Source of the DNA: Bradyrhizobium sediminis
Lineage (GTDB): Bacteria; Pseudomonadota; Alphaproteobacteria; Rhizobiales; Xanthobacteraceae
Direction: 5' to 3'
NCBI RefSeq assembly: GCF_018736085.1
Contig: NZ_CP076134.1
Location: 1,064,501-1,128,500 of the forward strand
DNA length: 64,000 nt
The notes under the pieces are model-generated. The model ran no database searches. It saw only the letters and a list, made by a program, of their open reading frames with translations, and was not told the DNA's origin. Made by a program: the position numbers and the translations under genes. Below, piece by piece: positions 20,258-31,154 of the stretch (position 1 is the stretch's first letter; every line of letters begins with the position of its first letter).

Positions 20258-20683
20258 TCAAGGCTTGTAGGCGGCGTCCCTTTTCCATCCGTCGAAACCG
20301 GTTTGCAGTACGAGGACATTGTCGCGTCCCGCAACGCGCAGCGCGAATGCGGCCTGGGCGGAGAGGCTGCCGGTGTTGCAGAACAGAATGACTTTCTTGT
20401 CTTTTGGTATCTCACTGATGCGGCTGAGCACCTCGCGCCATTCGATATTGCGCGCGCCCGGGATCGAGCCTGCGGCGAATTGCGCCGCATCTCGCGTGTC
20501 GATGAACACAACGCTATCGAAAATTTCCTTCGAAAGCTGCTGCGGCACAATGATGCCCGCCTCATAGGGAGCGAACTCCATGTAATCCTGCATGGCCTTG
20601 ACGGCCGGGCTCTCGGCAAGAGCCGGACTGAACAGAAGTGTCGCGCCCAGCAGGGCTGCCGACAGGCGGCTTGCGAAGGTCAT
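20258..20683 (-). CDS. Periplasmic rhodanese-domain protein
   Basis: A 141-residue protein with a Sec signal peptide (SRLSAALLGATLLFSPALAE) and one rhodanese domain: VVFIDTRDAAQFAAGSIPGA, the active-site Cys loop LFCNTGSLSA, and GFDGW near the end. It would carry or transfer sulfane sulfur in the periplasm. AAGGAG in gene sense precedes the ATG at 20683, which is preferred over a start seven codons upstream. It is the leftmost member of the sulfur cluster and lies downstream of the ArsR-rhodanese gene on the same strand. Confidence 0.85.
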   Translation of the reverse strand: MTFASRLSAALLGATLLFSPALAESPAVKAMQDYMEFAPYEAGIIVPQQLSKEIFDSVVFIDTRDAAQFAAGSIPGARNIEWREVLSRISEIPKDKKVILFCNTGSLSAQAAFALRVAGRDNVLVLQTGFDGWKRDAAYKP

Positions 20684-20772
20684 AACACTCGCTCCTTGTT
20701 CCAATAATCCTGGTTCACGCCATCGTTTTCGCGCGGTGTGGCGTCAACGGCACCTGTTCAGTGTCGCCTTGT

Positions 20773-21441
20773 TCAGGCCACAGCTTCGATCGGCAAGCCC
20801 GCGGCCTTCCATTCGGGATAACCATCCTCAAGCCGACGGACGAGATAGCCTCGTGCGCGCAGCGCCGCGACCGCCTCGAACGAGAGAACGCAATAAGGAC
20901 CGCGGCAATAGGCAATGACCTCGCGGTTCGCCGGAAGCTCACTCAACTTCTGTTCCAGCTTGCCAAGCGGGATATTCAACGCGCCGGGAAGATGCCCAAG
21001 CGCAAACTCGTCCTCGGGACGTACGTCGAGGACGGTGACAAGGCCATCGCGCAGCCGGGAGACCAAATCCTCTCTCGACACAGCCTCCAGCGCGTCGCGA
21101 GCACGGAAGTAGTCGGTCATGATGCGACTGACCTCGGCCACGTTGCGCTCGCCGACACGCCCGAGCGCCCGCATCAGGTCCACCACCTCATGGTCGCCGG
21201 CGAGCCGGTACAGCACGTGCTTGCCGCGACGCTCGGTATCGACGAGGCGCGCGCGCCGAAGGATCTGCAGGTGCCGCGAGGTGTTGGCGAAGCTCAGATT
21301 GGCCCGCGCGGAAAGCTCTTCAACGCTGCGCATGCCCTGGGCGATGTGCTCCAGCAGCTCCAGCCGGTGAGGGTGGCCGAGCGCCTGCGCCACTTCCGCC
21401 AAGCCGGTAAGGATCGCTTGTTTAGGTCCAACGCTTGACAC
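20773..21441 (-). CDS. ArsR-family regulator fused to a rhodanese domain
   Basis: A 222-residue fusion. Residues 1-100 form an ArsR winged helix (LGHPHRLELLEHIAQGMRSVEELS, NLSFANTSRHLQILRRARLV). Residues 120-220 form a rhodanese domain (VTVLDVRPEDEFALGHLPGA) with the active-site loop CRGPYC, which has two Cys. Such fusions are thought to sense reactive sulfur through the rhodanese Cys and control the divergent sulfur genes. The wing has none of the CxC metal ligands of ArsR proper. It is divergent from the MBL-fold gene, with a candidate operator between them. Confidence 0.88.
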   Translation of the reverse strand: MSSVGPKQAILTGLAEVAQALGHPHRLELLEHIAQGMRSVEELSARANLSFANTSRHLQILRRARLVDTERRGKHVLYRLAGDHEVVDLMRALGRVGERNVAEVSRIMTDYFRARDALEAVSREDLVSRLRDGLVTVLDVRPEDEFALGHLPGALNIPLGKLEQKLSELPANREVIAYCRGPYCVLSFEAVAALRARGYLVRRLEDGYPEWKAAGLPIEAVA

Positions 21442-21458
21442 GGCTTCCCCTCAGTGAA

Positions 21459-21482
21459 ACATTCACCAGAATGATTGAATGT
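21459..21482. promoter_or_regulatory. Candidate operator of the ArsR-rhodanese regulator
   Basis: ACATTCA (21459-21465) and TGAATGT (21476-21482) form an inverted repeat with a 10-base spacer, and a third GAAT lies inside. BigR/SqrR-type regulators are known to bind ATTC...GAAT palindromes. It sits in the 72-base gap between the divergent regulator and MBL-fold genes, so it could control both. Confidence 0.6.
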
Positions 21483-21513
21483 ATTTACCCCGGGGAATTC
21501 AGGAGCGCAAGCC

Positions 21514-22254
21514 ATGATCGTCCGTCAATTCCTGCACCATGAGCCCGTCGGCATCTCCTATCTGTTCGGCTGCGGCGGACGCGCGGCCGGTGCGGTCGTC
21601 GATCCCGTCGGCGAGATCGAGCCTTATCTGCGTGCCGCAGAGACCGCCGGCATGCGTATCCACTTCGTCATCGACACCCACGTTCATGCCGACCATCTCT
21701 CGGTGGGGCGGCAGCTCGCCGAGGCGGCCGGCGCGGAATATGTGCTCGGCGCGCGCGCGGAAGTCTCGTTTCCGTTCAGGGCGGCGCGCGACGGAGAGGA
21801 GCTTCCGCTCGGCAACGTCATCGCGAAAGTGTTGCACACCCCGGGCCACACCCCGGAACACATCTGTATTCTCGTGAGCGATCGCACCCGGGCCGACGAG
21901 CCCTGGTTCGTGCTGACCGGACACACTTTGATGGTCGGCGACCTCGGCCGCACGGAGCTCGCCGTCAGCGCCGAGCAGGGCGCAAAGGACCTGTTCCACA
22001 GCGTGGGACGGCTGAAGGCGCTGCCGGACTACGTTGAGGTTCTGCCCGGCGCCTATGCCGGCTCGGTGTGTGGCCGGCGCCTGAGCGGCAAGCCCTGGTC
22101 GACCATCGGCTTCGAGCGACGCTACAACGAGGCGTTCAGGATCGGAGAGCAGGCCGAGTTCATCCGCTTCATGCTCGCCGAGATTCCGCCGGCCCCGCCA
22201 GAGGCGGCCGCACTGAGGGCTGCGAACTCCGGCGCGACGGCTGTGGCAGCCTGA
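21514..22254 (+). CDS. MBL-fold persulfide dioxygenase-like protein
   Basis: A 246-residue metallo-beta-lactamase-fold protein with THVHADHLS (HxHxDH), TPGHTPEHICI and TGHTLMVGDLGRTEL, the metal-binding pattern of ETHE1/Blh persulfide dioxygenases, which oxidise glutathione persulfide to sulfite with O2. The start is ATG 21514 behind AGGAG. It is first in the rightward sulfur operon. A hydrolase role cannot be excluded, but the rhodanese partners favour the sulfur function. Confidence 0.85.
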   Translation: MIVRQFLHHEPVGISYLFGCGGRAAGAVVDPVGEIEPYLRAAETAGMRIHFVIDTHVHADHLSVGRQLAEAAGAEYVLGARAEVSFPFRAARDGEELPLGNVIAKVLHTPGHTPEHICILVSDRTRADEPWFVLTGHTLMVGDLGRTELAVSAEQGAKDLFHSVGRLKALPDYVEVLPGAYAGSVCGRRLSGKPWSTIGFERRYNEAFRIGEQAEFIRFMLAEIPPAPPEAAALRAANSGATAVAA

Positions 22255-22257
22255 CCG

Positions 22258-23559
22258 ATGAGCGAATCGCCATCGATTTCACAGTCGACGGGCTCGCGTG
22301 TCAGGCTCGGGCTCAAGGATAACTGGCGGCAGTTCGCGCTGCTCATCCTGATCAATGCCTTTGTCGGCGGCATGGTCGGGATCGAGCGAACGGTTGTGCC
22401 GCTGATCGGATCGGAAGAGTTCGGCATTGCCTCGACGACGATCGTGGTTTCCTTCATCGTCAGCTTCGGCGTCGTCAAGGCCCTTGCCAATCTCGTCTCC
22501 GGGCAGCTCGCCGATAACTGGGGCCGCAAGCGTGTCCTCGTCCTCGGCTGGCTGGTCGGGCTGCCCGTCCCCTTCATGATCGTATGGGCCCCGAGTTGGG
22601 GATGGATCATTGCGGCCAATGCGCTGCTCGGCATCAATCAGGGGCTTGCCTGGTCGATGACGGTGATCATGAAAGTCGATCTGGTCGGGCCGAAGTCGCG
22701 CGGTCTTGCGGTCGGCCTCAACGAGTTCGCCGGCTATCTCGCCGTAGGTGTCACGGCATTCCTCACCGGCTATCTCGCCTCTCGATACGGCCTTCGGCCG
22801 GTGCCGATCTATCTCGGTATCGGCTATGCGGTCCTGGGGGCCTTGCTGTCGATCGCGCTGGTTCGCGACACGCGTGAACACGTCCGGCTCGAAGCCGCCG
22901 GGTCTTCAAAGCCACCAACTTCGATGAGCTTTCGTGAAATCTTCGTCCTCACCTCGTTCCGGGACCGCAATCTCTTCGCCGCGTCGCAGGCCGGTCTCGT
23001 CAATAACCTCAACGACGGCATGAGCTGGGGCATCTTCCCGCTGTTCTTTGCCTCCTTCGGCCTCGGCGTCGAGCGCATCGGCATTCTGAAGGCGATCTAT
23101 CCCGCGACATGGGGAATCCTGCAGGTCGCCACCGGTCCCTTGAGTGATCGCTGGGGCCGCAAGGGCCTGATCGCCGCCGGCATGTGGATCCAGTCAGCCG
23201 GCCTGTTCCTCACCGCTGCGACGCGCCAGTACCAATGGTGGCTGGTCGGCAGCCTTCTGCTCGGACTCGGAACGGCGATGGTCTACCCGAGCCTGATTGC
23301 GGCCGTCTCCGATGCCTCGCATCCGACGTGGCGGGCGCGCTCGCTCAGCGTCTACCGCTTTTGGCGCGACCTCGGTTATGCCATCGGCGCGCTCTCGGCG
23401 GGTATCATCGCCGACATTTTCGGGATGGCGTGGGCGATCGGGTCGATCGCCGCGCTGACTTTTCTTTCCGGTGTCGTCGTGGCCGTGCTCATGTGTGAGC
23501 GTGCGAGCCCCTCTCTTGATCTTGCGCAAGATCCAAAACCACTCGGCCAATTAAAATAA
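22258..23559 (+). CDS. MFS transporter in the sulfur cluster
   Basis: A 433-residue, about 12-helix major facilitator protein. Loop 2-3 motif: GQLADNWGRKRVLVLG; the second-half copy is GPLSDRWGRKGLIAAG. The gene begins three bases after the MBL-fold gene, so the two are tightly coupled. The substrate is unknown; export of a sulfur oxyanion such as sulfite or uptake of a sulfur compound are both possible, by context only. Confidence 0.85.
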   Translation: MSESPSISQSTGSRVRLGLKDNWRQFALLILINAFVGGMVGIERTVVPLIGSEEFGIASTTIVVSFIVSFGVVKALANLVSGQLADNWGRKRVLVLGWLVGLPVPFMIVWAPSWGWIIAANALLGINQGLAWSMTVIMKVDLVGPKSRGLAVGLNEFAGYLAVGVTAFLTGYLASRYGLRPVPIYLGIGYAVLGALLSIALVRDTREHVRLEAAGSSKPPTSMSFREIFVLTSFRDRNLFAASQAGLVNNLNDGMSWGIFPLFFASFGLGVERIGILKAIYPATWGILQVATGPLSDRWGRKGLIAAGMWIQSAGLFLTAATRQYQWWLVGSLLLGLGTAMVYPSLIAAVSDASHPTWRARSLSVYRFWRDLGYAIGALSAGIIADIFGMAWAIGSIAALTFLSGVVVAVLMCERASPSLDLAQDPKPLGQLK

Positions 23560-23586
23560 TGTTAGTTGCAAAGATGGAGGCAACCA

Positions 23587-23952
23587 ATGCCAAAAGCTTT
23601 GATCAAGATCGTCGCCCCAGCGGGGGCCGCTCTCGCGCTTTTATCCAGCGCGGCATGGGCGCAGACGCCCTCGGACGCCGACAGATACGCCTATGGGCCG
23701 CATATGATGTGGTGGGGCGGAGGAGGGTACGCCATGATACTCGGTCCGCTGTTCATGATCCTTGTACTTACGGCGTTGATCGCTGCCGTAGTCCTGCTCG
23801 CACGCTGGGCCGGTGGGCCATGGCAGGGAACAATCCCGCCGCATTACATGCCGCCGGGTCGCACCGCCCTCGACATTCTCAAGGAGCGCTTTGCGCGAGG
23901 CGAGATCGATAAGGACGAGTTCGAGCAGCGGCGGCGCGTGCTCGGCGATTGA
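23587..23952 (+). CDS. SHOCT-domain membrane protein
   Basis: A 121-residue protein with a signal-like N-terminus (IVAPAGAALALLSSAAWAQ), a Tyr/His/Met/Trp-rich stretch (YGPHMMWWGGGGY), one transmembrane helix (LFMILVLTALIAAVVLLARW) and a C-terminal SHOCT motif (LDILKERFARGEIDKDEFEQRRRVL). SHOCT motifs are short oligomerisation modules. The start is ATG 23587 behind GGAGG. The His/Met-rich stretch might bind metal; the role in the sulfur cluster is unknown. Confidence 0.8.
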   Translation: MPKALIKIVAPAGAALALLSSAAWAQTPSDADRYAYGPHMMWWGGGGYAMILGPLFMILVLTALIAAVVLLARWAGGPWQGTIPPHYMPPGRTALDILKERFARGEIDKDEFEQRRRVLGD

Positions 23953-24026
23953 GCTGTCCGCATTGGACGATTGGTAGATGCGGAAACCGCATGCCGACCG
24001 AGCTTGCTCGATAGAGAGAAGGAAGG

Positions 24027-24386
24027 ATGCCTGTGCAGATCCTGTTCATCCTGAATGACCCGCCCTACGGTACCGAACGTGTCTACAATGGCCTGCGGCT
24101 GGCGCAGGCGCTGCTCAAGAGCGATCCGCAGGCGAGTGTGACCGTGTTCCTCATGGCAGACGCGGTCATTGCCGGCAAGGCGGGCCAGAAGACGCCGGAC
24201 GGCTACTACAATGTCGAACGAATGCTGAAGCGCTTGCTCGCCGGCAGCGGCAAGGTGCTTCTGTGCGGCACCTGCATGGACGCGCGCGGCCTCGAAGAAT
24301 CTGCCGTCGTGCCGGGCGCGCGCCGGAGCACCATGGACGAACTCGCGGCGGCAACCTTAGAGGCCGATAAGGTGCTGGTCTTCTAA
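24027..24386 (+). CDS. DsrE-family sulfur relay protein
   Basis: A 119-residue DsrE/DsrF-like protein: QILFILNDPPYGTERVYNGLRLA at the N-terminus and a conserved LLCGTCMDARG, giving a CxxC on the loop where DsrE proteins carry sulfane sulfur. GAGAAGGAAGG lies directly before the ATG. It probably accepts sulfur from a rhodanese or from the YeeE/YedE importer encoded next and hands it on in the cytoplasm. Confidence 0.87.
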   Translation: MPVQILFILNDPPYGTERVYNGLRLAQALLKSDPQASVTVFLMADAVIAGKAGQKTPDGYYNVERMLKRLLAGSGKVLLCGTCMDARGLEESAVVPGARRSTMDELAAATLEADKVLVF

Positions 24387-24448
24387 CAGCACGTTGTCTC
24401 AACCTCGAAAGAGCGTTTGCACGCTCATCGACATTCAAGGAACAAGGC

Positions 24449-25558
24449 ATGGGTCAGTGGGAACCAACGCAGCTTGCCACGCTTGGCGGTCTGGCGATCG
24501 GCATGCTGTTTGGAGGTGTCGCTCAAGCCACAGCGTTTTGTAGTAGCGGGGCTATCCTTGATTTCGTGCGATCAGGCGACGGCAATCGCCTGCGTGCCTG
24601 GCTGTTGGCGATGGCGGCGGCGATCTTTTCCGCTCAGTTGTTGCTGGGCTTCGATGTCCTGGATGTGCGCAAGGCGGTCTACCTGACCGCCCCCTTGAAC
24701 CTCGCCGGCCCCGTGCTGGGCGGTCTCATGTTCGGAATTGGCATGATGCTGGCGCAAGGTTGCGCCGCGCGGAATCTCGTTCGTCTCGGCGGCGGCAACC
24801 TGCGGGCTCTCGTGGTCGTTCTTGTCTTCTCCATCTCCGCCTATGCTGCCATGCGCGGGATTCTTGGGCCAGGCCGTATCGAACTGGAACGCCTCACGCG
24901 CGTCAATCCCGGCGCTGCCGGCGTGCCGGAACTCCTTGCCGGAGTTTTGGGGGTGGCGGCTGAACAGGCGCGCTGGATCGTCGCCCTTGGCACTGCGGGC
25001 GCCCTCGCGGTGTTCTGCTTCGCAAGCTCGGCCTTTCGTTCTTCGCCGCGCAATATAATCACTGGTCTGGCGATCGGTTTGCTTGTGATCGCGGGCTGGT
25101 ATCTCACCGGCGTCCTGGCGCAGGACGAGTTCAACCCGACGCCGCCTTCGAGCCTGACCTTCGTCGCTCCGCTTGCCGACAGCCTGCAATACGTCATGCT
25201 CTTCACCGGGATGAGCGCCAATTTCGGGATAGCGGTGGTGGGCGGCGTCATCCTTGGGGCCTTCCTGATGGCGCTGGCTCGCCGCCGCTTTCGGATCGAG
25301 GGATTTGGCGACCAGCGGGACTTCATTCGTCAGTTAGCCGGAGCCGTACTGATGGGTACGGGCGGTGTGTTCGCCATGGGCTGCACGGTCGGCCAGGGAT
25401 TGACGGGGCTCTCGACATTATCGCTCGGCTCAGTTCTCGCGGCACTTTCAATCGGCGCGGGCGGTTTTCTGGGAGCCCGGTTGTTCGAGGCGCCTACCGA
25501 CGTAGCTAATGAACGTCGCACAGCTTCCGCGGCAACGAGCAGGGTCAGGGCGACATGA
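24449..25558 (+). CDS. YeeE/YedE (TsuA-like) sulfur transporter
   Basis: A 369-residue polytopic protein with duplicated halves. Conserved cysteines lie in AFCSSGA (about residue 31), AQGCAARNLVRLGGG (about 110) and AMGCTVGQGL (about 310), the three-Cys relay known in thiosulfate transporters of this family. It would move thiosulfate or a sulfane-sulfur anion across the inner membrane. Its stop overlaps the next start by ATGA, linking import to cysteine desulfurase production. Confidence 0.87.
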   Translation: MGQWEPTQLATLGGLAIGMLFGGVAQATAFCSSGAILDFVRSGDGNRLRAWLLAMAAAIFSAQLLLGFDVLDVRKAVYLTAPLNLAGPVLGGLMFGIGMMLAQGCAARNLVRLGGGNLRALVVVLVFSISAYAAMRGILGPGRIELERLTRVNPGAAGVPELLAGVLGVAAEQARWIVALGTAGALAVFCFASSAFRSSPRNIITGLAIGLLVIAGWYLTGVLAQDEFNPTPPSSLTFVAPLADSLQYVMLFTGMSANFGIAVVGGVILGAFLMALARRRFRIEGFGDQRDFIRQLAGAVLMGTGGVFAMGCTVGQGLTGLSTLSLGSVLAALSIGAGGFLGARLFEAPTDVANERRTASAATSRVRAT

Positions 25559-26688
25559 CCGCGCAACGCATCTATCTCGACTACAACGCCAGCACGCCGA
25601 TCGATCCGGCAGTCTCCGCTGCAATGATGCCGTTTCTGGCGGATCATTTCGGTAACCCGTCGAGCGGGCATTGGGCCGCCGCGCCAGCGAAAGCCGCGCT
25701 TGAAAGGGCGCGTGGGCAAATTGCGGCCGTGCTTGGCTGTGAGGATGATGAAGTCGTCTTCACCAGCGGCGGCAGCGAGGCCAACAACCTTGCGCTCAAA
25801 GGCGTGTTTTTTGCACGGCGCAGCGGTGGCGATCACATCATCACTACCAGGATCGAACACCCGGCGATCATCGAACCGTGCCGCTTTCTTGAACGCCTGG
25901 GCGCGCGGATAACCCGTCTGCCGGTAGATGGATTCGGGCGCGTCGATCCCAATGACCTGCGCCGGGCCATCACGCCGCACACCATCCTCGTCAGCATCAT
26001 GCACGCCAACAACGAGGTGGGCACCATCCAGCCGATTGAGGAGTGCGCGCGCATCGCCCGCGATCATGGCATCCTGTTTCATACCGACGCCGCCCAATCG
26101 GTCGGCAAGATTGCAACAGACGTGAACGGGCTCGGCGTCGACCTGCTCTCGATCGCCGGGCACAAGCTATACGCCCCCAAGGGTGTCGGCGCCCTGTTCG
26201 TTCGCCGTGGCGTCCAACTCGAGCCGCTCATTCACGGGGCCGGACACGAGAGCGGGCGGCGCGCCGGGACCGAGAGCGCGTTGCTGGCGGTCGGTCTCGG
26301 CAAGGCTTGCGAGCTGGCGTGCGATCTCTCGCCGATGGATCGGGTGCGCGCCTTGCGCGACCACTTCTGGCGTGAACTGCAGTCGCGGTTCGGCAATGGC
26401 ATCGCTCTCAACGGACATCCGACGCATCGCCTGCCGAACACGCTCAATGTTTCCTTCATCGGCCGCGCCGGCGGCGAGATACTGGAACGGCTGGACGGCG
26501 TCGCCGCCTCGACGGGCTCGGCGTGCCATTCGGGGCACATCGAACTGTCGCCCGTCCTTGCGGCGATGTGCGTCGCGCCCGAAGTGGGCATGGGGGCCAT
26601 CCGCTTCAGCCTCGGGCGCGGAACGACCCGCGAGGAAATCGACGCGGTTGCCGAACGCCTGAGTGGCGCCCTCGCAGTTGTTTCATGA
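25555..26688 (+). CDS. Cysteine desulfurase family protein
   Basis: A 377-residue class V aminotransferase of the NifS/IscS group: YLDYNASTPIDP, FTSGGSEANNLALKG, NNEVGTIQP, HTDAAQSVGKI and the PLP-binding Lys in SIAGHKLYAPKG. The active-site Cys is in TGSACHSGHIELSP. It should remove sulfur from cysteine as an enzyme persulfide, although in this operon it could act on a modified or imported sulfur compound. Start and stop overlap its neighbours by ATGA. No IscU or IscA lies nearby, so it is probably not a general Fe-S system. Confidence 0.9.
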   Translation: MTAQRIYLDYNASTPIDPAVSAAMMPFLADHFGNPSSGHWAAAPAKAALERARGQIAAVLGCEDDEVVFTSGGSEANNLALKGVFFARRSGGDHIITTRIEHPAIIEPCRFLERLGARITRLPVDGFGRVDPNDLRRAITPHTILVSIMHANNEVGTIQPIEECARIARDHGILFHTDAAQSVGKIATDVNGLGVDLLSIAGHKLYAPKGVGALFVRRGVQLEPLIHGAGHESGRRAGTESALLAVGLGKACELACDLSPMDRVRALRDHFWRELQSRFGNGIALNGHPTHRLPNTLNVSFIGRAGGEILERLDGVAASTGSACHSGHIELSPVLAAMCVAPEVGMGAIRFSLGRGTTREEIDAVAERLSGALAVVS

Positions 26689-27410
26689 CCCGTGGCGCGG
26701 AACGCGGCATGGGCGGTGCACAACCGGCCGAAGAGCTGACAGCGTCGTATGTCCGGTGGCGATCGAGCCGTCTCGGCCGGATCACCGACGCCCTTGAGCG
26801 GCAACTGCTCGCGAGACTTCTCGGCAAGGTCGATGGCAAGAAGCTGCTCGACGTCGGGTGCGGCGATGGCGCAATGGCATTCGAACTGGCGCGGCAGGGC
26901 GCAAGCGTAACCGCGCTCGATGCCGATCCGTCCATGATTGCAGCCGCCCGCCTTCGCGCGGAAAGCGAAGCCACCCGCGCTCAGTTCGTGGAAGGCAACG
27001 CCGAGAGCCTGCCCTTCGATGACGCGACTTTCGATATCGTGGTGGCGGTGACCGTGCTTTGCTTCGTTCGAGACGCCGAGCGCGCGGTGAAGGAAATCGC
27101 CCGCGTTCTCAAGCCCGGAGGACGGCTTGTCATCGGCGAACTCGGACGCTGGAGCCTTTGGGCCACGCAACGGCGCATCCGCGGCTGGCTCGGACATCCG
27201 GTCTGGGGTGCAGTGAAGTTCCGGACGGCGGCGGACCTGCGAAGCCTCGCGGAGGCGGCGGGGTTGCGTGTCGTTGCGATACACGGAGCCGTGCATTATC
27301 CGCCGTGCGGCCTCGCAGCACGGCTCCTTGCCCCGGTTGATCCATGGCTTGGGCGGAAGACGACATTCGGAGCCGCATTCCTGGCCATGTCTGCGGTCAG
27401 GCAGCGATGA
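26685..27410 (+). CDS. Class I SAM-dependent methyltransferase in the sulfur operon
   Basis: A 241-residue methyltransferase. SAM motif I is LLDVGCGDGAMAFEL near residue 55, the acidic loop is TALDADPSMI, then GNAESLPFDDATFDIVVA and VLKPGGRLVIGELG. The UbiE/type-11 fold is clear; the acceptor is unknown. ATGA overlap with the desulfurase gene sets the start, though ATG 26709 is possible. Its stop overlaps the next gene in the same way. By context it could methylate a thiol or a thiolated nucleoside (inference). Confidence 0.85.
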   Translation: MTRGAERGMGGAQPAEELTASYVRWRSSRLGRITDALERQLLARLLGKVDGKKLLDVGCGDGAMAFELARQGASVTALDADPSMIAAARLRAESEATRAQFVEGNAESLPFDDATFDIVVAVTVLCFVRDAERAVKEIARVLKPGGRLVIGELGRWSLWATQRRIRGWLGHPVWGAVKFRTAADLRSLAEAAGLRVVAIHGAVHYPPCGLAARLLAPVDPWLGRKTTFGAAFLAMSAVRQR

Positions 27411-28243
27411 ATTTGCGGCGGATACGGAGAACCACTTTGGAAAAGACGGAAACGCCGCCAATCCTCGCGAACAAGCATTACGGTACCGCCTCCGCCTTCA
27501 AACCCGAGAACCTGTTGCGCGAAGCACGGCGCCAAAAAGGGCTTCCGACGGGCTCCGTACCGGAGATCTGCATTCTCGATCCCGATGGCGACATGGTTCG
27601 ATATCTGCGCGCCGCAGGCCTGGCTGACCGTCACCCCGATTGGGCGTGCTACCACACCGATCTCCATGTCTTCCGCAAGGGCGGGCATGAATATGGCATC
27701 GTCGGCGGCGTTGTCGGAGCCTCGTTTGCGGTCCTGGTCGCAGAAGAGTTGTTCGCATCGGGCTGCCGGTTTCTTGTAAGCATGACCTCCTCAGGTCAAA
27801 TCTTGCCCGTGCAGGCACCGCCGTATTTCATTGTCATCGAACGTGCGCTTCGCGACGAAGGGACCAGTTACCATTACCTGCCCCCTTCCGATTACAGCGA
27901 AGCGGCCCCTGATCTGACGCGGATGGCAAGGAAAGCGCTGATGACGGCGGGCATTCCAATTCAGTCCGGCGCGACATGGACCACCGATGCTCCATTCCGG
28001 GAAACCGAGCAGGCGATCGACGCGGCAAGGAACGCCGGCATTCTTGCCGTGGAAATGGAGGCGGCGGCGCTCTATGCGTTTGCGAGGGCCCGCGATTGCG
28101 CGGTGCTTTGCCTGGCGCACGTGACCAACCAGATGGGTCGGATCGAGGGAGACTTTGAAAAAGGCGTTGCGGATGGAGCCGAGGAATCGCTCGAGGTAAT
28201 CGCCTCGGCCGCGGCGGGCTGGCGGACGGAGGTGCGGTCATGA
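27407..28243 (+). CDS. Nucleoside phosphorylase / nucleosidase family protein
   Basis: A 278-residue PNP/UDP-family protein. Seen are GIVGGVVGASFAVLVAEEL, FLVSMTSSGQI, the substrate-ribose motif VEMEAAALYAFA (EME), and TNQMG. The family cleaves the glycosidic bond of nucleosides, either by phosphorolysis or hydrolysis. Its substrate is not set by motif; methylthioadenosine, S-adenosylhomocysteine or uridine are candidates. It is coupled to the methyltransferase (ATGA), consistent with recycling a SAM-derived product. Its stop in turn overlaps the start of a broken methyltransferase stub. Confidence 0.82.
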   Translation: MNLRRIRRTTLEKTETPPILANKHYGTASAFKPENLLREARRQKGLPTGSVPEICILDPDGDMVRYLRAAGLADRHPDWACYHTDLHVFRKGGHEYGIVGGVVGASFAVLVAEELFASGCRFLVSMTSSGQILPVQAPPYFIVIERALRDEGTSYHYLPPSDYSEAAPDLTRMARKALMTAGIPIQSGATWTTDAPFRETEQAIDAARNAGILAVEMEAAALYAFARARDCAVLCLAHVTNQMGRIEGDFEKGVADGAEESLEVIASAAAGWRTEVRS

Positions 28244-29610: not shown

Positions 29611-30507
29611 ATGACGCAATTGACATCGATCCTCGATGAATTCCGCCAAATCTGGCCCTATATTTTTGCCGGCGACCTCGCCCGCTATCTGATCGGCGCC
29701 GGCTCCGTATTCCTTCTCATCTGGGTGCTCTTCCGGTCGCGACTGGCAGCCCGGAAGATCCGGAAAAATACCCCACCGGCCGGTCAAATCTGGCGGGAGA
29801 TCGGTCATTCGCTGGTGACGGTCTGCATCTTCGCGACTGTCGGGACATCGATCGGGATCGGAGCGATGCATGGCGTATTTCAGGTCTACACCGACGTTTC
29901 CCTTTATGGCTGGCCTTATCTCGCTGGAAGCGTCGTTGCCATGATCGTGGTGCAGGATGCCTATTTCTACTGGGTGCATCGGCTGATGCACCGCGTGCCG
30001 CTGCTGTGGAAAGTGCATGCCACTCACCATCGCTCGCACAATCCAACCCCGTGGACGGCCTACGCGTTCGATCCGGGCGAAGCCCTGATCCACGCGCTGT
30101 TCATGCCGATGTTCGTCGCGATCGTTCCGATGCACGTCGGCGGCCTGTTCGCATTCACGGCCCACATGATGCTGCGCAATGCCGTCGGTCATTGCGGCTA
30201 CGAGCTGTTTCCGAAGGGTTGGGCGGATCGTCCGATACTGGGTCTCGTGACCATGGTCACCCACCACGACATGCACCACGAGCACGCGCCGCGGAATTTC
30301 GGGCTGTATTTTACGTGGTGGGATCGGCTGATGGGAACCGAGCATCCGGAATACCGGGCGCGCACCAAATTGATGACGCCGGACAATGGGATGCTTGATA
30401 GCCTCAAAGGCGCCTACGCGTCACAGGTCGGAGCGGAAAGTCCAGCCGGGGAATCGCTTGAGGCCATCGCCCTGGTGGGCTGGAGAGCGAATGAGGAACG
30501 TCGATGA
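29611..30507 (+). CDS. Sterol desaturase / fatty acid hydroxylase family membrane protein
   Basis: A 298-residue membrane di-iron enzyme. The His boxes are HRLMH, HATHHRSHN and HHDMHHEH, in the order typical of sterol desaturases, alkylglycerol monooxygenase-like proteins and carotenoid hydroxylases. Several hydrophobic helices lie before and between them. It would hydroxylate or desaturate a lipid in the inner membrane. AAGGAGAG precedes the ATG at 29611. It overlaps the methyltransferase gene by ATGA, so the two act together. Confidence 0.85.
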   Translation: MTQLTSILDEFRQIWPYIFAGDLARYLIGAGSVFLLIWVLFRSRLAARKIRKNTPPAGQIWREIGHSLVTVCIFATVGTSIGIGAMHGVFQVYTDVSLYGWPYLAGSVVAMIVVQDAYFYWVHRLMHRVPLLWKVHATHHRSHNPTPWTAYAFDPGEALIHALFMPMFVAIVPMHVGGLFAFTAHMMLRNAVGHCGYELFPKGWADRPILGLVTMVTHHDMHHEHAPRNFGLYFTWWDRLMGTEHPEYRARTKLMTPDNGMLDSLKGAYASQVGAESPAGESLEAIALVGWRANEERR

Positions 30508-31154
30508 ATTTCTATGAGCGCTGGATATTGCCGCCCATTCTCGATCTGGTGATGCGACAGAAGCACCTCACGAAATATCGCCGCGAGGTGATCGCCGCCG
30601 CCCGCGGGCGCGTGCTCGAAATCGGCGTCGGCTCCGGATTGAATCTGCCGCTCTATGGCAAGCAGGTGGAGCTGGTCTACGGGCTCGATCCTTCGGCCAG
30701 ACTGCTGGCCATCGCGCGCCGGCGTGCCGCCGCATCGGCGGTGCCCGTTGACCTCCTGCTGGGCTCGGCGACCGCGATCCCGCTTGCGGATGACAGCATC
30801 GATACCGTTGTGATGACGTGGACGCTTTGCTCGATCCCGGATCCGTTGGCTGCGTTGCGCGAGATGCGCAGGGTACTCAAGCCCGATGGCACTCTCTGCT
30901 TTGTCGAGCACGGACTGTCGCCCGAGCCGGGCATCGAACTCTGGCAGCACCGGATCACGCCGGCCTGGCGCCGCATGGCAGGCGGTTGCCATCTGGATCG
31001 CAAGATCGACGAACTCGTCCGTGTCGCCGGCTTCGATCTGACCAGCCTGCAGGCGGAATACGCGCCAGGGCCCCGCACCATGTCCTACATGTATGAAGGG
31101 TGCGCGTGCCGCAGTCATTCCGGCGGCATCGGCTCGCCCGTATCAGCCGATTGA
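30504..31154 (+). CDS. METTL7-like class I methyltransferase
   Basis: A 216-residue protein. SAM motif I is VLEIGVGSGLNLPLY; later come YGLDPSARLLAIARRR, LLGSATAIPLADDSIDTVV, LCSIPDPLAALREMRRVLKPDG and FVEHGLSPEPG. The C--IP-P--AL-E--RVLKP and FVEHG motifs are those of METTL7/TMT1-type proteins, whose human members methylate thiols including hydrogen sulfide; lipid methyltransferases are also similar. The N-terminus MNFYERWILPPI is shared with the stub at 28240. It is coupled to the desaturase gene by ATGA. Confidence 0.8.
   Translation: MNFYERWILPPILDLVMRQKHLTKYRREVIAAARGRVLEIGVGSGLNLPLYGKQVELVYGLDPSARLLAIARRRAAASAVPVDLLLGSATAIPLADDSIDTVVMTWTLCSIPDPLAALREMRRVLKPDGTLCFVEHGLSPEPGIELWQHRITPAWRRMAGGCHLDRKIDELVRVAGFDLTSLQAEYAPGPRTMSYMYEGCACRSHSGGIGSPVSAD

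Follow-up and report, generated by a model that had tools for sequence, protein, structure and literature searches.

Bradyrhizobium sediminis carries a cluster of ten genes at positions 20,258 to 28,243 of a 64,000-nucleotide stretch of its genome (NCBI RefSeq assembly GCF_018736085.1, contig NZ_CP076134.1, forward-strand positions 1,064,501 to 1,128,500; hereafter the window), which was originally predicted from the sequence alone as a candidate system for the handling of reactive sulfur. All ten genes were recovered from the window sequence by profile matches, at the positions and, in outline, with the families that had been predicted. The cluster combines an ArsR-type repressor fused to a rhodanese domain, a predicted operator, and a methyltransferase (MT1) that is paired with a protein of the NP-I superfamily (NP), and the module with this operator and this MT-NP pairing is real and recurrent. 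For this reactive-sulfur module a regulator, an operator, and a signature enzyme can be predicted, and a 511-amino-acid (aa) MT-NP fusion offers a one-protein handle on the link of methylation and nucleoside cleavage to sulfane-sulfur genes.

Gene content and layout of the cluster

The following features were located in the window (start and end, strand, description).

20258..20689, minus strand, single-domain rhodanese (PF00581, 65.8 bits), the N-terminus being signal-peptide-like as judged by eye
20776..21438, minus strand, ArsR-rhodanese repressor (HTH_5 and Rhodanese)
21461..21480, no strand, predicted operator, a 20-bp palindrome ATTCA-N10-TGAAT in the divergent promoter between the ArsR-rhodanese and PDO-like genes
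21514..22254, plus strand, persulfide-dioxygenase-like (PDO-like) protein with metallo-beta-lactamase fold (PF00753)
22258..23559, plus strand, major facilitator superfamily (MFS) transporter (PF07690)
23587..23952, plus strand, SHOCT-domain small protein (PF09851, 39.5 bits)
24027..24386, plus strand, DsrE-family protein with CxxC (PF02635)
24449..25558, plus strand, YeeE/TsuA-like transporter, accessory (PF04143)
25555..26688, plus strand, cysteine desulfurase of the IscS/NifS class (PF00266)
26685..27410, plus strand, MT1, class I methyltransferase dependent on S-adenosylmethionine (SAM) (PF08241)
27407..28243, plus strand, NP, putative nucleoside-cleaving enzyme of NP-I fold (PNP_UDP_1), start possibly TTG 27437
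29611..30507, plus strand, fatty-acid-hydroxylase-family protein, possibly associated (PF04116)
30504..31154, plus strand, MT2, a further methyltransferase linked to the module (PF08241)

The ten predicted genes stand; MT2, the fatty-acid-hydroxylase-family gene, and the operator were missed in the prediction. Three 4-base ATGA overlaps, as predicted, were read in the sequence at 25555-25558, 26685-26688, and 27407-27410, but the third may not mark the true start of NP, since the ATG at 27407 has no good ribosome-binding site, whereas the TTG at 27437 is preceded by ggag and NP homologues start near this position. The GC content of the cluster (63.5%) hardly differs from that of the window (64.2%). 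The host genome consists of a single contig of 5.55 Mb with one copy of NP, and it probably enables thiosulfate oxidation, because SoxB was detected over its cut-off. Two SoxB copies with identical scores lie 62 kb apart (G000:C1:599811-601484 and 661896-663569; loci L160 and L161), perhaps in a duplicated sox region.

Recurrence of the module and fusion of MT1 and NP

The neighborhood sample comprised 34 loci from relatives and 80 named loci from a scan with NP (the best 80 of 557 confirmed), in which genes were called, clustered, and family-labelled, some of the labels being based on nothing more than a profile match with an E value as high as 1e-6. From these 114 loci (L031-L144), L044 was excluded for a weak NP hit and L072, L092, L134, and L141 because no NP gene was called. 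The resulting set contained 110 loci including the window, i.e., 101 distinct loci after merging of identical NP proteins, 97 of which had at least four neighbor genes. Many of the Bradyrhizobium loci are near kin, so that counts do not represent independent events, and the gene caller, which was trained on the same families, may miss genes. As a control, genes at most three positions from NP (n = 552) were compared with genes at least seven positions away (n = 467) at the 101 distinct loci.

Enrichment near NP was found for methyltransferases (38 of 552 near, 5 of 467 far), MFS transporters (24 and 3), PDO-like proteins (18 and 2), ArsR-rhodanese repressors (18 and 5), DsrE (14 and 0), and the desulfurase (11 and 0), which bears out the predicted reactive-sulfur gene set and shows it to be recurrent. 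No enrichment was seen in this comparison for the single rhodanese (4 near and 4 far), of which related genes occur in L079 and L088, for SHOCT proteins (2 and 0), or, within three genes of NP, for response regulators, SDR, MerR, and ABC genes. The fatty-acid-hydroxylase family was weakly enriched (8 and 2, p 0.09) and occurred within eight genes of NP in 10 of the 101 loci; in L079, L086, L088, L093, and L127 such genes are divergent from ArsR-rhodanese. Neighbors of the enriched families recur in lineages that include Acidobacteriota, Chloroflexota, and Bacteroidota, and in 49 of the 101 loci one or more of the five sulfur genes counted lay within eight genes of NP (two or more in 30). Moreover, the predicted linkage of desulfurase, methyltransferase, and NP proved to be more than scatter: a co-directional desulfurase was found at most four genes from NP in 11 of the 101 loci, together with a methyltransferase in six of them, and several desulfurase/NP loci display 4-base overlaps (L070, L079, L096, L091, L139, and L045).

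Association with SAM-consuming enzymes was not confined to the sulfur context. Within three genes of NP, a SAM-consuming enzyme was present in 45 of the 97 loci with sufficient neighbors, a sulfur gene in 47, both in 22, and neither in 27, and a methyltransferase or radical SAM protein was encountered in 53 of 176 three-gene flanks near NP versus 6 of 91 far from it (Fisher p 3e-6). Other settings of NP include a divergent methyltransferase (MT9), MerC-like or MerA-like neighbors, TauE/BacA, or nothing recognized. A MerC-like gene immediately precedes NP in L094 and L100, and in L094 MerR and MerA-like genes lie just beyond NP, which hints at a soft-metal link. A TIGR04282-type glycosyltransferase was found within eight genes of NP in 12 of the 101 loci; a radical-SAM/glycosyltransferase set occurs in Bradyrhizobium and in other genera, and in seven Bradyrhizobium loci (L046, L047, L048, L049, L050, L051, and L071) NP is the first gene of such a set, followed by genes for a TIGR04282 glycosyltransferase, GT87, radical SAM/SPASM, and GT2, which is divergent from Rv1679/Rv1680/Rv1681-like genes. 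Arsenosugar synthesis was considered for this context and not adopted: the glycosyltransferase exceeded its cut-off, but one radical SAM neighbor scored 41.7 versus 300 for ArsS and the other had no ArsS among its best 25 models.

In a separate set of 197 relatives, ArsR-rhodanese (E up to 1e-40) and the MFS transporter (E up to 1e-100) were searched for. ArsR-rhodanese yielded 23 hits in 22 genomes, of which 18 are linked to NP, 16 by direct adjacency and those of G000 and G115 within the cluster, and five are not (G096, G121, G136, G162, and G191). All 18 MFS hits, from 17 genomes, lie within about 2 kb of ArsR-rhodanese and 17 are near NP; the MFS transporter is tied to the cluster.

The palindrome follows the repressor closely. 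Exact ATTCA-N10-TGAAT occurs once in the window (chance mean 0.05), and in the 1.81 Mb of loci L031-L144 none of the 18 exact copies is more than 63 bp away from the start of an ArsR-rhodanese gene. Bradyrhizobium and kin account for all but five of these copies, which belong to other lineages (L069, Chloroflexota; L112, Bacteroidota; L086; L088; L104). Conversely, an exact site accompanies 18 of the 29 ArsR-rhodanese genes that lie outside the window; another 6 match no more than a very loose form of the pattern, and the remaining 5 match neither form. Two further exact copies in the host genome, one inside an open frame (L158) and one just downstream of an MFS frame (L157), displayed no link to sulfur genes and were treated as chance occurrences rather than regulon sites.

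A similar arrangement is found on plasmid pGW6_1 of Methylocystis rosea, where ArsR is divergent from PDO, MFS, SHOCT, DsrE, desulfurase, an MT1-NP fusion of 511 aa, and, directly after the fusion, an MT2 homologue (69%). The ArsR protein is 59% identical to that of the window over 217 residues, and the exact operator is present as well (L163:4145). In the other arm of this cluster, a second NP copy (L163:1138-1845, minus strand) is frameshifted near its end, and an MT14-type methyltransferase-like stretch was seen by eye just upstream of it.

When the 511-aa protein was used as query, 23 of the best 120 of 3230 proteins measured at least 430 aa, and 18 of these, the query included, are MT1-NP fusions, two of which look frameshifted (P0128 and P0134). 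Ten are close to the window proteins and of alphaproteobacterial type (MT 52-72%, NP 55-73%), and the other eight make up a more remote group, which includes an Acidimicrobiia record (MT 35-41%, NP 52-55%). The remaining five proteins contain MT1 and MT2 with a variably degraded, NP-like N-terminal stub between them. The gene fusion provides good evidence that MT1 and NP act together, and no other observation points as strongly to a coupling of methylation to nucleoside cleavage. The stub proteins suggest that MT1-NP-MT2 was an older gene order and that MT2 (30504-31154) belongs to the system. The prediction that import of thiosulfate, desulfuration, methylation, and nucleoside cleavage act in one step is thereby retained for the coupling of the last two; thiosulfate import does not appear to belong to the core, because, apart from the window itself, only its nearest relative L045 had a gene labelled as a relative of this YeeE.

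The closest relatives of the window NP make up a supported five-member clade, all members of which lie with sulfur genes that overlap in content, and because this clade includes one metagenome-assembled genome (MAG) of Acidobacteriota and two of Proteobacteria, horizontal transfer is suggested. In a grouped NP table the sulfur-context label changed 23 times versus a mean of 34.0 after shuffling (0 of 500 shuffles as low, to which near-copies contribute), and well-supported branches of the NP tree force only 8 changes. A literature search in open-licence PMC papers yielded no paper on the cluster, the MT-NP fusion, or the operator, in line with the prediction that the trio is not a known sulfur pathway.

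Active-site and putative sensor residues

NP has the purine nucleoside phosphorylase (PNP) fold of the NP-I superfamily. Its ribose-binding pair Met217-Glu218, shared with the hexameric PNP DeoD, is conserved in 34 of 34 homologues. The phosphate site, which in PNP presumably consists of Arg24, Arg43, and Arg87, is altered: Arg87 is replaced by Ser125 in 34 of 34 homologues, and by alignment the Arg43 position holds Asp or Glu in 30 of 34 and the Arg24 position is hydrophobic. No invariant Arg occurs between residues 43 and 149 in the 34 homologues, where an Asp-rich LDPDGD loop is invariant; Arg65, an Arg in 27 of 34, could replace Arg24 if the alignment shifts. NP furthermore differs from DeoD in an N-terminal LLREARRQ helix, in invariant motifs of its own, and in the replacement of the purine-binding acid, Asp204 in E. 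coli PNP, by Asn241 in 33 of 34 homologues, and it scored 42.5 with the deoD model (cut-off 232). The predicted "phosphorylase" is therefore right as to fold, whereas phosphorolysis is doubtful, since Arg87 and, by alignment, Arg43 are gone. Database annotations of family members, often uridine phosphorylase or nucleoside phosphorylase, may well be wrong.

Methylthioadenosine (MTA)/S-adenosylhomocysteine (SAH) nucleosidase (MTAN, Pfs) and HpnG-type enzymes share the fold superfamily, which would explain the pairing of NP with SAM-consuming enzymes. In contrast to these enzymes, NP has Asn at the position of the catalytic Asp, as aligned via PNP Asp204 rather than to MTAN directly. Adenine-specific nucleosidases use Asp at this position, and the catalytic Asp of MTA/SAH nucleosidase protonates N7; MTAN-D198N in entry 4p54, the title of which places MTA in the site, is presumably a trapping mutant. 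A fragment of a host protein read as HpnG-like aligned to NP over 27 residues only (1.3% probability).

The repressor contains cysteines only in the C-x4-C of the rhodanese loop (CRGPYC), both of which are kept in 30 of 30 ArsR-rhodanese homologues from NP loci; no further alignment column had Cys in the window regulator or in half of these rows. Sensing at the rhodanese loop is a reasonable guess, because the loop is invariably C-x4-C and the ArsR domain is free of Cys. The sulfane-sulfur repressors SqrR and BigR, according to PMC9774590, possess two conserved ArsR-domain cysteines that form a sulfur bridge; the window regulator lacks these and scored 49.7 with the BigR model (cut-off 155). 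The regulons of BigR/SqrR/SoxR type (PMC9774590 and PMC12423496) resemble the cluster in that an ArsR-family repressor is divergent from a PDO-like gene, which is accompanied by genes for sulfur transfer and transport, but the window regulator carries a fused rhodanese and a DNA-binding domain without Cys, and the cluster adds a desulfurase, two methyltransferases, NP, and an MFS transporter of its own. SahR, an ArsR-type, SAH-responsive regulator, was considered because of the methyl-cycle link and set aside on domain architecture rather than by motif comparison: the window regulator is fused to a rhodanese domain, and the SahR paper (PMC4239095) makes no mention of rhodanese.

Among the sulfur-handling proteins, the PDO-like protein aligned to 3tp9, 3r2u, 9rhq, and 4ysb, and its matches include ETHE1 (4chl). 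The iron site of ETHE1/PDO is 2-His-1-Asp, whereas the third metal-ligand position is His137 here, with His in 18 of 20 cluster homologues and Asp in 2. A three-His site is possible, and the protein may still work like a persulfide dioxygenase. The CxxC of DsrE is present in 20 of 21 aligned homologues (a gap in the other). YeeE aligned to 6leo with Cys motifs common to both and scored 102 bits with NCBIfam TsuA (cut-off 400). The desulfurase belongs to the IscS/NifS class, although NCBIfam equivalog cut-offs were not reached (NifS, 447.9 versus 530.75), with a conserved GHK motif of the pyridoxal-phosphate lysine and a mobile-loop Cys324 in 21 of 22 homologues (a gap in the other). It matches cluster homologues at 51-89%, versus 45% for its closest paralogue in the host. 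Its loop GSACHSGH..LSPVL resembles that of selenocysteine lyase, while the protein is otherwise IscS-like.

Proposed function and alternative explanations

The favored reading, put forward tentatively, is that of a module which is induced by sulfane sulfur, disposes of it, and methylates a thiol, while NP clears a nucleoside tied to the methylation. The gene linkage, the association with the operator, the MT-NP fusion, and the altered phosphate and base-acid positions are observations, whereas inducer, methyl acceptor, and the substrate and reaction of NP are what we infer. The ArsR-rhodanese repressor would occupy the palindrome at 21461-21480 and leave it upon persulfidation of its C-x4-C loop, and this release would switch on the divergent operons, i.e., a chain for sulfane-sulfur disposal and a methylation unit. 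In this chain, the desulfurase and DsrE would collect or carry sulfane sulfur, the PDO-like protein would oxidize persulfide, and the MFS transporter would export a product. SAM-dependent methylation of a thiol would fall to MT1, and to MT2 as well, and the N-glycosidic bond of the nucleoside would be split by NP in its coupling to MT1. The substrate of NP would most likely be a SAM by-product, i.e., SAH in methyltransferase contexts and 5'-deoxyadenosine in radical-SAM contexts, with hydrolysis preferred over phosphorolysis; if this is true, NP would represent a new nucleosidase family. By motif, MT2 may resemble METTL7-type thiol methyltransferases, and by analogy with human METTL7B/TMT1B it might methylate H2S or alkyl thiols. 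METTL7B methylates H2S and has SAH as competitive inhibitor (PMC7921093), so that clearing of SAH would make sense.

Several observations weigh against this reading. Asn241 speaks against SAH or 5'-deoxyadenosine as substrate, and with Arg65 a phosphate site may still exist. Besides NP, the host genome encodes SAH hydrolase and, as judged by eye, an MTA phosphorylase. In 52 of the 101 loci, the five sulfur genes are all absent from the eight genes on either side of NP, because of which the full trio is regarded as one variant of a wider association of NP with methyltransferases. Together with these loci, the at least 22 changes of the sulfur-context label over the 97 rows of the NP tree make the sulfur link recurrent, not universal, and 24 of the 97 loci lack both labelled SAM enzymes and sulfur genes within six genes of NP.

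Asn241 would suit the detoxification of thio-nucleosides, in which reactive sulfur yields thiolated nucleosides of the 6-thiopurine or 4-/2-thiouridine type, MT1 S-methylates these, NP splits base from ribose, and the MFS transporter exports the product, since Asn at this position goes with 6-oxo-like bases or pyrimidines. An MT-NP fusion would moreover pass one molecule through both sites, and DsrE with the desulfurase is reminiscent of the thiouridine sulfur relay, albeit with a weak TusD score (30.4 versus 89.25). However, nucleosides are not known to suffer sulfur damage by sulfide in vivo, none of the ten cluster genes encodes a tRNA-thiolation or base-activating enzyme, and the radical-SAM and glycosyltransferase contexts of NP do not fit, which leaves this explanation rather unlikely; if true, it would constitute a new branch of sulfur metabolism. 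A thio- or methylthio-nucleoside, as brought up in the original prediction, may be the substrate. The broader proposal of a widespread, undescribed MT-NP enzyme in which S-methylation of a sulfur-bearing nucleoside is linked to cleavage of its N-glycosidic bond, as a new route to detoxify or excrete reactive sulfur under a rhodanese-sensing class of ArsR repressor, is likewise speculative and would not be expected to hold.

Biosynthesis appears slightly less probable still. Here the product of MT1-NP-MT2, the desulfurase, and DsrE would be a small methylated metabolite of sulfur-ribosyl or nucleobase type, exported by the MFS transporter, with NP building or trimming the sugar in the manner of HpnG, whose phosphorylase-like step probably follows radical-SAM adenosylation. 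The company of other NP members, i.e., radical SAM, TIGR04282 (152.4 bits, cut-off 134), and further glycosyltransferases, and the three annotated methyltransferase genes of the Methylocystis cluster, one being the MT1-NP fusion, are in agreement with such a role, but no backbone-forming enzyme was recognized among the ten genes, and the promoter and gene set resemble a stress response. A loose island, in which unrelated sulfur-stress genes gather and NP has no specific part, would account for the label changes on the NP tree, for the loci with neither SAM enzyme nor sulfur gene, and for G096, which has ArsR-rhodanese and MFS genes without an NP match; it is considered improbable to a similar degree, given the MT-NP fusion inside the cluster, an operator common to distant lineages, and similar gene orders across phyla. 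Handling of selenium or soft metals, with a selenocysteine-lyase-like desulfurase, YeeE as selenium transporter, and methyltransferases that make volatile methyl selenides, is highly unlikely: the desulfurase loop shares ACHS..SPVL with human selenocysteine lyase 3gzc and has His after Cys in 21 of 22 homologues (a gap in the other), and MerC-like or MerA-like genes adjoin some NP homologues (L094, L100, and L082), but the full-length desulfurase scores 322 bits with IscS/NFS1 versus 230-234 with selenocysteine lyase, YeeE scores 45.9 with the YedE selenium model (cut-off 350), and MerA-like genes, unlike sulfur genes, are not enriched near NP (3 of 552 versus 2 of 467).

Finally, an NP-like sequence was encountered on a haloarchaeal plasmid (Halalkalicoccus; L164:7001-7770), in two pieces, adjacent to a transposase gene and without gene annotation.

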